From: Thermosphaera aggregans DSM 11486
GTDB taxonomy: Archaea > Thermoproteota > Thermoprotei_A > Sulfolobales > Desulfurococcaceae
Assembly: GCF_000092185.1 (NCBI RefSeq)
Contig: NC_014160.1
Location: 310,001-374,000 of the forward strand
DNA: 64,000 nt
Reading direction: 5' to 3'
The first letter of the stretch is position 1. Each line of letters starts with the position of its first letter. The notes below the pieces were generated by a model. The model did no database searches. It worked only from the letters and a program-made list of their open reading frames with translations, and was not told where the DNA came from. Shown here in pieces: positions 2,313 to 6,178 of this stretch. The translations under genes were made by a program, and so were the position numbers.

Positions 2313-2415
2313 ATACCATCCCGCTTATTTTATTTATTATTTCCCCGTAAATACTTTAACAATTAGAGTAAATTTTATTACCGAGGAGCTTGCTCTTAAT
2401 AAGCAAATTCTATCG

Positions 2416-3705
2416 GTGAGCTCTTTGAATTCAACATGGGACTTACCCTCTGTCAAAGAAATCATGGAGAAGGCTGTTAAATCGGAGCTCTTGGCTCATC
2501 CTCACGTAAAAAAATTATGGGAGCTTTCAGGAGATAAATCTCTTTTCACCAAATCTCCAGAGGAATTGTCTTCCCTCAGGAGGGATCTGTTGAGAAGTTC
2601 TTTAAAGTTTTTCGCCGAGATGAGCGATTTCTACGAGGAATTATTCAACAGGATAGGTATTGATCCGGGTTCAGCCGAATTAGAAGATCTTGTTAAATTG
2701 GCTGTTCCCTCAGATCTTTTAAGGGGAGAGGGTTATAAACGATTCCTGATCCAGCAGGTTAAAAGCGAACCAAGCACTGTTTTCTCATCTAGCGGAACAA
2801 CTAGTAATACACCGGTAAGGGTTTACAGGACCTACTTGGAGTTAGCAATGATGACTAGAGCAAACACCTTATTGTTCGAGTACGTGTATGGGGGTGAGCT
2901 TGAAAGAGGGAGGGGAATAGCCTTATTCCTCGCCGCTAAGGAGCTTAGAAGCCGGCTTAATTTCGTGGCATTCGTTGACCTTGCTCTCCAAGGCAAAGAG
3001 ATTCCTCTCTTATACGGCATGGTGTTATCCAAGGAAGAGGCCGGAGGTTCTCAATGGAAGAAGCTCGTCCCCAATAAGAAGGCGATTATGGAGTTTTTCA
3101 AAAGCAAGGAGGAGCCAAAGCTTCTATTTACAGCCCCTGCCGGGATATACCTGCTCTCTAAGCAATTCGAAAATATGAACCCGTTTTTGAAAATCCTCAG
3201 CAAAACAGTGTATAGGATCCCACCCGTGGACTTAGGGGAGGGTGGAGTGATTGTAACAGGTGGGGGTAGTAAAGGCTTTCAAATCCCCGATTACGATACT
3301 ATTGTCAAATATTCAAGAAAGTTCTTCAAGGCGAGAAGGAATGGTTTAGAGGTGCCTACACCGTTCATGGACGTATTGGGTATGACTGAGACTTTGACCG
3401 CCTTAATTGATAACTACGATGTTATGGGAAAAATTCCACACCCGCTTCAAGAAGTTTTCCTCATAGATCCTAAGACCTTTAAGCTCGTCCAGGAACCAGA
3501 CAGAGACGGTATTCTGGGGATTTTCGATCCGCTGGCTGTTTCATGGCTCGAGGTCTTCCTGCCAGGGGATATGGTGAGGTTTAAGTATTCAAACAGGTAT
3601 TATGGAAAGGAGTTTCAATATGTGAGGAGATTATCAAAAGATGAGGGATGGGAACTCCAGCGTGCATGCGGAGGTACCCTTGAGGAGATGATGAGTAGTG
3701 GATGA
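2416..3705 (+). CDS. LuxE-like acyl-protein synthetase (acyl-activating enzyme)
   Basis: This 429-residue protein matches the acyl-protein synthetase (LuxE) family. LuxE activates a carboxylic acid with ATP and holds the acyl group on a cysteine for delivery to LuxC. Seen in the sequence are the adenylate-forming motif SSSGTTSNTPVRV (residues 125-137), the LuxE-type TGGGSKGF (281-288), DVLGMTE (319-325) and GDMVRF. A lone Cys418 sits 11 residues from the C-terminus, just where bacterial LuxE carries its acylation-site cysteine (Cys364, nine from the end). The start is GTG. Its last eight bases overlap the luxC-like gene, which fixes these two as one operon with the SDR gene behind. There is no luciferase. 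The substrate is unknown, since archaeal membranes do not use fatty acids. Confidence 0.85.
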   Translation: MSSLNSTWDLPSVKEIMEKAVKSELLAHPHVKKLWELSGDKSLFTKSPEELSSLRRDLLRSSLKFFAEMSDFYEELFNRIGIDPGSAELEDLVKLAVPSDLLRGEGYKRFLIQQVKSEPSTVFSSSGTTSNTPVRVYRTYLELAMMTRANTLLFEYVYGGELERGRGIALFLAAKELRSRLNFVAFVDLALQGKEIPLLYGMVLSKEEAGGSQWKKLVPNKKAIMEFFKSKEEPKLLFTAPAGIYLLSKQFENMNPFLKILSKTVYRIPPVDLGEGGVIVTGGGSKGFQIPDYDTIVKYSRKFFKARRNGLEVPTPFMDVLGMTETLTALIDNYDVMGKIPHPLQEVFLIDPKTFKLVQEPDRDGILGIFDPLAVSWLEVFLPGDMVRFKYSNRYYGKEFQYVRRLSKDEGWELQRACGGTLEEMMSSG

Positions 3706-5167
3706 CGATAATGTTGTAAAACCCATTTACTATGGTAAAATAGAGGTTCAAAATAATGGCACGGGAGTATGGGAGCCTACCGTTGAGTGGTTGAATGAGT
3801 TTTTAAACCGGAGTATGGAACTATCACAGAGTCTTTTACAACTAGGCTTTAGTAGAAGGGTTAGAGTGTTGAGCGAGATGGGGAAGATTTGGAGGGAGAA
3901 GCTTTCGTTAGTCGAGGAGAAACTAGCTCCTAATATTTCTAAGAATACAGGCTACAGCGTGGAGAATGTGAAAATGGACTTAAGACTGGTTGAAGAAGTG
4001 TTTAATGAGACCAATATTGTTGAGCTCTTCGATAAAGGCTTAATCGGGGGATGGCGTAGTCTTGACAAGCCCGTTGAAATCATTGATGGGGAGTTCGTGT
4101 GGAATAGACCGCTAGGCGTATCCCTTATAATATCCTCCGGAAACACCGTCATACCAGCTATTCTCCCAGCAGTGGTTTCTTTAGCATCGGGGAACGTAAC
4201 TATACTAAGGCCGTCTTTCAGCAACTACCAAGCAGTAGTCGAAATTTTTAAAACACTTTTCGATCTAGCAGACAGCTCCGTAGAAGGTGCTAGAGAAATG
4301 GCTTCGGCTCTTCTGGTCGCATACTTTAAACATGAGAGCAAGGTATTTGAACACCTATTAGCATCAGCACCTCTCGGCATCGTCAATTACTGGGGCGGGG
4401 AGCCAGGTAGAAGCGTGATCGCTAGTAGGGTTTTGAAGAATCCGTTTCATCCTAAGTTAATCGTCAATGGACCTCTAACGGGGTTAGCGATAATAGATGA
4501 AGAGTCAGCGTCGGAAAAAGTAGCCTACGGATTAGCGAGGGATGTGGTACTGTATGATCAACAGTTATGTAGCTCTCCCACTTACGCCATATTCATAGGT
4601 TCGAAAGATAGCGCGTTGAAGTTTGCACAGAGACTAGGGGAAGCCCTGAATAATGTGGGGAGAAGGTTCCCCCGTGATTTGAAGGAAGGAGAACTGTACA
4701 ATTTAATACTGCTTAGGAAAAACCTTGAGATCCAAGGTGTGAGAGTTTTCTACTCGGAAAACCCCGGAAATGCTTGGACGATTGCGGTGAAAACACTAGA
4801 GTCAGTCACTAATTTTGCATATAGTTTAAAATATCCACATACAATCCCTAGGAGACGGTTCATTGAAATAATAGTGTTGAAAGACGCCAAAGAACTCAAG
4901 GAGACGATCTTACACCTAATTGAAGACTTGAGGAGAAACGGGGTTGATAAGTTCCAGACAGCATCGATAAAGGTTTCTGAAAGAAACCTTAACCACTTAT
5001 TGAAGGTTCTCTATATTCTTGGGATTTACAGGGTTGTCCCAATAGGGGAATCCTTTTTTAGAACGCCGTTAGAACCGTACGATGGTGAATTCTTACCTAA
5101 ATACTTCACTTACACGATGTATCTTAGATTTATCGAGAAGTCGGATGCGCTAAAACACCCTGAATGA
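3698..5167 (+). CDS. LuxC-like acyl-CoA/acyl-protein reductase
   Basis: This 489-residue protein belongs to the LuxC acyl-CoA reductase family, related to aldehyde dehydrogenases. Bacterial LuxC takes an acyl group from LuxE or CoA onto a cysteine and reduces it with NADPH to the aldehyde. Here Cys291 in YDQQLCSSP is in the family's active-site context, and the NRPLGVSLIISSGNTVIP stretch (136-153) fits the cofactor-binding part. The GTG start at 3698 overlaps the upstream luxE-like gene, with a GGAG-rich ribosome site just before it. The stop at 5165-5167 is followed directly by the start of the SDR gene. Translational coupling implies that the three proteins work together: activation, reduction to an aldehyde, then a further step by the SDR. 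The natural acyl substrate is not known. Confidence 0.87.
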   Translation: MDDDNVVKPIYYGKIEVQNNGTGVWEPTVEWLNEFLNRSMELSQSLLQLGFSRRVRVLSEMGKIWREKLSLVEEKLAPNISKNTGYSVENVKMDLRLVEEVFNETNIVELFDKGLIGGWRSLDKPVEIIDGEFVWNRPLGVSLIISSGNTVIPAILPAVVSLASGNVTILRPSFSNYQAVVEIFKTLFDLADSSVEGAREMASALLVAYFKHESKVFEHLLASAPLGIVNYWGGEPGRSVIASRVLKNPFHPKLIVNGPLTGLAIIDEESASEKVAYGLARDVVLYDQQLCSSPTYAIFIGSKDSALKFAQRLGEALNNVGRRFPRDLKEGELYNLILLRKNLEIQGVRVFYSENPGNAWTIAVKTLESVTNFAYSLKYPHTIPRRRFIEIIVLKDAKELKETILHLIEDLRRNGVDKFQTASIKVSERNLNHLLKVLYILGIYRVVPIGESFFRTPLEPYDGEFLPKYFTYTMYLRFIEKSDALKHPE

Positions 5168-6178
5168 GTGATGGATGTGAGGATCACTGTAACAGGCGCC
5201 ACTGGGTTTCTCGGGTCCTATGTTGTGGATAACCTGATTAATAAAGGCTTCACTCTCAGGGGAACCTATTACAGTCCCGGGAAGAAGCAGACCTTACTCT
5301 CTAAGAATGTTCAACCAGTATACATGGATTTAGGGAGACCTGAGACCTTTCCGAACGTTGTGAAAGATACTGATATTTTAATCCACCTAGCAGCTTACTA
5401 TACTTTCACCGGGAAGAAAACCCTGTATTATAAGCTTAACGTGGATGCAACCAAAATACTTGCAGAGCAGGCATTGAAGCATGGGGTGAAAAGATTTATT
5501 TACTGCAGCTCAACGGAAGCCATAGGCCCAGTGGATAACCCCCCTGGTGATGAGGAAACCCCGCCTAACCCGCAGTTTGACTATGGTCGTTCAAAACTCC
5601 TTGCGGAGCAGAAAATAAAGGAAATAGCGGCCAATGGTCTCTCCTATACGATTATAAGGCCTAGTGGACTGTACGGGCCAGGGAATGTTAACGATGTATC
5701 ATACTGGTTTATAACATCTTTCGCAAAGGGAGGTTTCTTTTCTAAATTTAAAATAGGAAGCGGCGAGACCCTCATACAATTCGCACACGTTGATGATGTT
5801 GCCAAGGGTTTCGCCCTCGTGGTTGAGAGGCTTGAAAAATCTGAAAACCAAGTCTTCATTCTCTCAGAAGATAGGGCATACACATATAACGAGGTGTATA
5901 AGATACTGTCCGAGATCACAGGTAACCCGCCGCCAAAATATAGCTTAAGCCCTAAGATGGCAAAGCTCATCTTGTCGTTCACCCATTTATACGCGCTCGT
6001 AAAAGGGGATAATAATATACTACTTAGAAGAAACATTGTTGATTCGATAGCCAAGCACAGGGCGTATAGTGTTGAGAAAGCAAAGAGGTTGTTGGGTTAC
6101 TCGCCAAGATATAATTTGAAAGAAGGATTAAAAGAGACTATCGAATGGTACAGGTTGAAAGGATATATTAAGAAATAA
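5168..6178 (+). CDS. Extended short-chain dehydrogenase (NAD-dependent epimerase/dehydratase family)
   Basis: The protein has 336 residues and a Rossmann nucleotide-binding motif at the start (TGATGFLGS, residues 9-17). The SDR catalytic set follows: Ser114/115 in YCSST, and Tyr139 and Lys143 in YGRSK. The C-terminal half has the extended SDR substrate domain (RPSGLYGPG, QFAHVDD). Sequence flavour is nearest to dihydroflavonol-4-reductase/3-beta-hydroxysteroid dehydrogenase types, which act on carbonyl/hydroxyl groups of hydrophobic substrates. It begins immediately after the luxC-like stop (GTG 5168 or ATG 5171), so it is the third gene of the operon and may reduce or modify the LuxC product. 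Its 3' end overlaps the convergent HAD gene by 11 bp. Family is sure, substrate is not. Confidence 0.85.
   Translation: MMDVRITVTGATGFLGSYVVDNLINKGFTLRGTYYSPGKKQTLLSKNVQPVYMDLGRPETFPNVVKDTDILIHLAAYYTFTGKKTLYYKLNVDATKILAEQALKHGVKRFIYCSSTEAIGPVDNPPGDEETPPNPQFDYGRSKLLAEQKIKEIAANGLSYTIIRPSGLYGPGNVNDVSYWFITSFAKGGFFSKFKIGSGETLIQFAHVDDVAKGFALVVERLEKSENQVFILSEDRAYTYNEVYKILSEITGNPPPKYSLSPKMAKLILSFTHLYALVKGDNNILLRRNIVDSIAKHRAYSVEKAKRLLGYSPRYNLKEGLKETIEWYRLKGYIKK

Follow-up and report, generated by a model that had tools for sequence, protein, structure and literature searches.

Glowing bacteria are known to reduce free acids, in their case fatty acids, through an acyl-protein relay. The acid reacts with ATP to an acyl-AMP, the acyl group is carried as acyl-S-LuxE and then as acyl-S-LuxC, and the product is the aldehyde. 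The adenylating enzyme EhpF is paired with an aldehyde dehydrogenase for carboxylate reduction. Here we describe what appears to be an undescribed archaeal form of this lux-type reductase. It was found in a stretch of 64,000 nucleotides (positions 310001–374000, hereafter the window) of the Thermosphaera aggregans genome, a single contig of 1,316,595 bp, and lies at window positions 2416–6178. The operon consists of three open reading frames on the + strand, encoding a LuxE-like protein, LuxC and an extended SDR (Table 1).

Table 1. Features of the three-gene operon in the T. aggregans window (window coordinates).
Feature	Position	Strand	Remarks
Candidate archaeal TATA-like element AAATTTTATTA	2370..2380	+	Spotted by eye; ~36 nt upstream of the LuxE start
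LuxE-like acyl-adenylating/acyl-transfer protein (putative)	2416..3705	+	429 aa; ORF, ANL/PaaK fold, hhalign to bacterial LuxE, invariance
Codon of Cys418, predicted acyl-carrying Cys of the LuxE-like protein	3667..3669	+	
LuxC-like acyl reductase (putative)	3698..5167	+	489 aa; PF05893 match, 7xc6_A sequence and fold match
Cys291 codon (motif YDQQLCSSP); predicted catalytic Cys of LuxC	4568..4570	+	
Extended SDR (DFR/HpnA-like)	5168..6178	+	336 aa; abuts LuxC; family matches, invariance

Neighbouring genes of the operon overlap or abut, and the LuxC start overlaps the end of the LuxE-like gene by 8 bases. The GC content (43.6% versus 43.8% for the window) gives no sign of transfer. On the opposite strand, adjoining the operon (538–2312), are genes for an ATP-grasp_5 protein, a small protein that is probably secreted or membrane-bound, and a DUF7128 protein; three Thermosphaera genomes retain the first two of these genes, and two retain the DUF7128 gene. 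Seven window proteins, from the operon and its surroundings, were scanned and none matched a luciferase family; neither LuxD nor luciferase was found adjoining the archaeal cassette.

The LuxE-like window protein had no Pfam or NCBIfam match at E ≤ 0.001, and the label LuxE therefore rests on remote evidence. No solved structure was matched by sequence, profile search included. While the protein itself does not reach the cut-off of PF04443 (LuxE), 3 of 20 relatives match this family (best E 9e-6), and the general AMP-binding family matches one of the same 20 (at 0.018); fewer of these members match other ANL families than match Pfam LuxE. Using hhalign, the archaeal LuxE-like profile could be aligned over nearly its full length with a profile of five bacterial LuxE proteins from plasmids (prob 98, E 1.7e-13), compared with E 0.26 and 0.59 for unrelated negative-control profiles. 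The alignment puts Cys418, 11 residues before the C-terminus, on the catalytic cysteine of bacterial LuxE (KGC), and the chain ends at the helix bearing this invariant residue. Its ANL motifs are SSGTT (125–129) and GMTE (322–325), and PGD is at 383–385. An AlphaFold2 model (10-sequence alignment, pLDDT 82) matches PaaK and related adenylating enzymes, and the features predicted for the protein are an ANL fold with a P-loop, an acidic motif and a C-terminal acyl cysteine. Judged from its sequence, the first protein is a distinct archaeal LuxE-like subfamily outside PF04443 as defined, and its assignment is a remote one.

LuxC matches PF05893 at E 5e-36 (124.9 bits, cut-off 21). The best PDB match by sequence is 7xc6_A, from a LuxC-LuxE complex, and the same chain of the Photobacterium complex is the best fold match of the LuxC model (pLDDT 86) among 350,542 PDB chains (E 8e-21). 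Cys291 is aligned with the active-site cysteine of known LuxC. The bioluminescence equivalog NF052251 (NCBIfam) gave 54.5 bits, below its cut-off of 750. By homology, the archaeal protein is a LuxC homologue and not a bioluminescence enzyme. The SDR matches the Epimerase/3beta-HSD families, and its NCBIfam scores for HpnA (144.3, cut-off 367.65) and OleD (99.3, cut-off 580) reach neither cut-off. It has a catalytic pair Tyr139-x3-Lys143 and, in most orthologues, an Arg at the end of beta-2, which (45 of 48 cassettes) suggests NADPH as the cofactor.

All 48 intact cassettes have Cys418 of LuxE, Cys291 of LuxC and the Tyr and Lys of the SDR unchanged. The SSGT motif, the D, G, M, and E residues of DVLGMTE and the GD of PGD in LuxE are invariant in the same 48. 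When one common reference genome was compared with 13 others for all four proteins, the mean identity was 64% for EF-1A, 61% for LuxE, 54% for the SDR and 40% for LuxC. For a protein of an accessory cassette, constraint close to the EF-1A level points to a single fixed substrate or partner of LuxE; LuxC varies more freely.

A preliminary description of this DNA had proposed three overlapping or abutting genes with intact LuxE- and LuxC-type catalytic apparatus. The open reading frames were confirmed on the + strand, and the two cysteines lie where they had been placed, 11 residues from the LuxE C-terminus and in YDQQLCSSP of LuxC. Since Cys418 and Cys291, like the other key residues of the three proteins, never vary among the intact cassettes, the idea of intact enzymes holds up, as does the LuxC assignment (PF05893, and 7xc6 as the best match in both fold and sequence). 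The LuxE assignment stands with respect to profile homology, ANL fold and aligned cysteine, but has to be narrowed to a distinct archaeal subfamily below the Pfam LuxE threshold.

The genomes of 84,980 species were scanned for the cassette, giving 54 loci, all labelled archaeal; the scan patterns were derived from the archaeal cassette proteins, and very distant bacterial relatives would escape them. About 48 copies, from archaea only, are intact and have the order LuxE-LuxC-SDR, which is also seen in nearly all loci with sufficient contig. As this order recurs across archaeal phyla, the arrangement is not due to chance. The carriers are Thermosphaera, the Zestosphaera family, Thermofilaceae, Methanomethylicota, Brockarchaeota, Odinarchaeia and Methanomassiliicoccales, and the loci also include Methanofastidiosia. 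Within the class, 10 of 229 genomes have the pair or trio: three belong to Thermosphaera, the other seven to a single family that includes Zestosphaera. Full-length LuxE is present in about 25 of 398 genomes phylum-wide. In one Zestosphaera-family genome LuxE is found ~26 kb from LuxC-SDR on a common contig. Thermofilaceae have the cassette in 5 of 17 genomes (2 of 7 within the genus Thermofilum), and the order Methanomassiliicoccales, which was entered via a Methanomassiliicoccus genome, in about 22 of 101. The distribution is patchy even inside genera, and the cassette is accessory and apparently transferred, not a general archaeal pathway. The LuxE-LuxC(-SDR) operons seen in bacteria are analogous to it, but distant. 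No relative was found in viral contigs, and a virus-borne origin was rejected.

The earlier proposal of an unknown archaeal pathway in a host with isoprenoid lipids is supported in part. The host part was right, T. aggregans being an organism with tetraether lipids (PMC3035292). In the literature searched on LuxE/LuxC in archaea we found nothing describing this three-gene operon, in keeping with the proposal; as an accessory and apparently transferred cassette, it is not a general pathway.

The patristic distances of the LuxE, LuxC and SDR trees correlate at 0.85–0.90, to which shared species history contributes. In all three trees Thermosphaera is sister to one donor-like genome, SKYB66 (L031), and nested within the Zestosphaera family (support 0.93, 0.985 and 0.996). 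No other sampled genus of Thermosphaera's own family has the cassette, and the EF-1A of SKYB66 is slightly more like that of a member of its own family (77) than like that of Thermosphaera (74). The simplest reading suggested by these trees is a single transfer of the whole three-gene unit; cassette loss in all sister genera could also account for the pattern.

Two Methanomethylicota genomes (93–95% complete) retain LuxE without LuxC. These LuxE copies break 12 (L084) and 24 (L085) of the 135 positions that are invariant in intact copies, compared with 0–5 of 135 for intact LuxE in leave-one-out controls, and the L085 protein has lost the acyl Cys (it reads RASG). In L084 the gap after LuxE still contains the ends of a relic SDR (73% identity over 127 bases, E 2e-13). 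These lie between the decaying LuxE and a glutaredoxin gene (L084:10660-11150), as in a cassette dying through internal deletion. Degenerate fragments were also seen in two other genomes, one with a LuxE containing stops (G116) and one with pieces of LuxC and SDR (G165). LuxE decays where LuxC and SDR have been lost, and is therefore not kept without its partners, as a relay model predicts.

The flanking genes vary by lineage and the cassette has no fixed neighbours. In about ten Methanomassiliicoccaceae a MenA-like UbiA gene follows the SDR on the same strand, mostly 46–80 bases away (L119:3872-4840); a radical SAM gene is often found on the other strand at these loci. No UbiA counterpart at threshold was found in Thermosphaera, the Zestosphaera family, Brockarchaeota or one of the two cassette-bearing Thermofilum, and UbiA was therefore rejected as a general clue to the substrate. 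In Methanomethylicota, genes for glutaredoxin and the ferredoxin-thioredoxin reductase beta chain (rubredoxin-like domain) are located closely downstream of the cassette (L083:14105-15030), and might perhaps keep the acyl cysteines reduced.

The sequences show which genes form the set, which fold families they belong to and which catalytic residues are invariant, and that the genes are inherited and decay together. The acyl relay itself and the direction in which it runs are inferred. In the reading we consider probable, the three genes travel horizontally as a self-contained unit, whose task is to reduce one particular free carboxylic acid without CoA. In this reading, the LuxE-like protein would adenylate the free acid with ATP and load the acyl group onto Cys418. 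The acyl group would then move to Cys291 of LuxC and be reduced there by NAD(P)H, giving the aldehyde, which (or a carbonyl of which) the SDR would most likely turn into an alcohol using NADPH; the SDR step could also come before the acid reduction. Such a relay needs neither CoA nor an acyl carrier protein and therefore suits archaea. More tentatively, and with somewhat less than even confidence, the cassette may represent an undescribed archaeal pathway of hyperthermophiles and methylotrophic methanogens, in which one conserved acid is converted to an alcohol or aldehyde via an acyl-cysteine relay without CoA or carrier protein.

As to the substrate, we can only guess at a lipophilic acid (isoprenoid or branched) or an aromatic one, giving an accessory product; the patchy distribution argues against core lipid synthesis, and the presence of the cassette in methanogens against fermentation acids. 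Thermofilum requires lipids or filtrates from other archaea (PMC4673724), but a link to this need was dropped, as so few genomes of the genus have the cassette. A link to the butanetriol/pentanetriol tetraethers of Methanomassiliicoccus was also dropped, since a passage of PMC10673518 cites a paper reporting that the backbone methylation concerned is enzymatic, and since the cassette is much more widespread.

Among other explanations, the one that fares best, though still unlikely, leaves LuxE and LuxC with the aldehyde as their real product and gives the SDR another job, such as preparing the acid, epimerising, or reducing a ketone elsewhere in the molecule. Its best scores are with HpnA ('hopanoid-associated sugar epimerase') and with 3-oxoalkanoate or sterol-type SDRs, rather than with an enzyme dedicated to aldehyde reduction; however, it does not reach these family cut-offs, and the NADPH-type Arg motif and the fixed third place after LuxC fit a sequential reductase. 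It seems quite improbable that the cassette is a redox or acid-handling side route, which would dump reducing power by converting fermentation acids (isovalerate, aryl acetates) to alcohols. T. aggregans does ferment peptides to acetate and isovalerate (PMC3035292), and the nearby ATP-grasp protein (538–1257) may, to judge by its family, belong to an ADP-forming acyl-CoA synthetase as its beta subunit, but this gene adjoins the cassette only in Thermosphaera. Moreover, methylotrophic methanogens also carry the cassette, the annotation of T. aggregans includes alcohol dehydrogenases and three aldehyde ferredoxin oxidoreductases for this purpose, and a cost of one ATP per acid is poor for fermentation. 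Least probable is an ordinary PaaK-type acyl-CoA ligase acting with a plain acyl-CoA reductase and no protein-bound relay, for although PaaK and other acyl-CoA ligases are the best fold matches of the LuxE-like model, the C-terminal Cys at the bacterial acyl-Cys position is invariant and Pfam LuxE matches more family members than other ANL families do.

A conserved mobile relay of this kind in archaea with isoprenoid ether lipids points to an undescribed archaeal product. With its predicted function, the cassette would be a compact three-protein carboxylate reductase, in some versions hyperthermophilic, with possible use as a biocatalyst.

Several described or sequenced systems resemble the archaeal cassette in part. 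Phenazine biosynthesis uses truncated, EhpF-like adenylating enzymes (PDB 3l2k, 3hgv) with a PaaK-like fold, which are among the close structural matches of the LuxE-like model, but the EhpF substrate is an aromatic phenazine. A haloarchaeal plasmid (L174:3430-7245) encodes two tandem LuxE/EhpF-like adenylating proteins, seemingly without the C-terminal Cys, followed by LuxC, and would seem to be a different archaeal arrangement of LuxE/LuxC chemistry. On a Streptomyces plasmid (L175:4421-6999) YcaO-like, DUF692 and MBL proteins adjoin LuxE and LuxC, an arrangement that suggests a ribosomal peptide pathway in which LuxE/LuxC carry out a reduction. The flagellin glycosylation islands of Aeromonas, like the archaeal set, combine LuxE and LuxC with an SDR (of ketoreductase type) in a single region without light production, but amid glycan genes with an acyl carrier protein (PMC7874193), whereas the archaeal cassette lacks glycan genes as fixed neighbours. 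Adjacent LuxE and LuxC (acyl-protein synthetase and acyl-CoA reductase) are also found on a Priestia plasmid (L171), and on a Lactiplantibacillus plasmid (L172) an SDR directly follows the pair, as in the archaeal order. This SDR is of a shorter type than the archaeal extended SDR, both plasmid LuxE proteins are of the bacterial Pfam family, unlike the archaeal one, and their LuxC proteins are 24–27% identical to archaeal LuxC. With LuxC-LuxE of luminous bacteria (luxCDABE; PDB 7xc6) the archaeal cassette shares the LuxE and LuxC pair itself, the LuxC fold and active-site Cys motif, and the LuxE fold class with its C-terminal Cys. It differs in its low identity (~20%), in the extended SDR as third gene, in its archaeal hosts and in a LuxE below the Pfam threshold.
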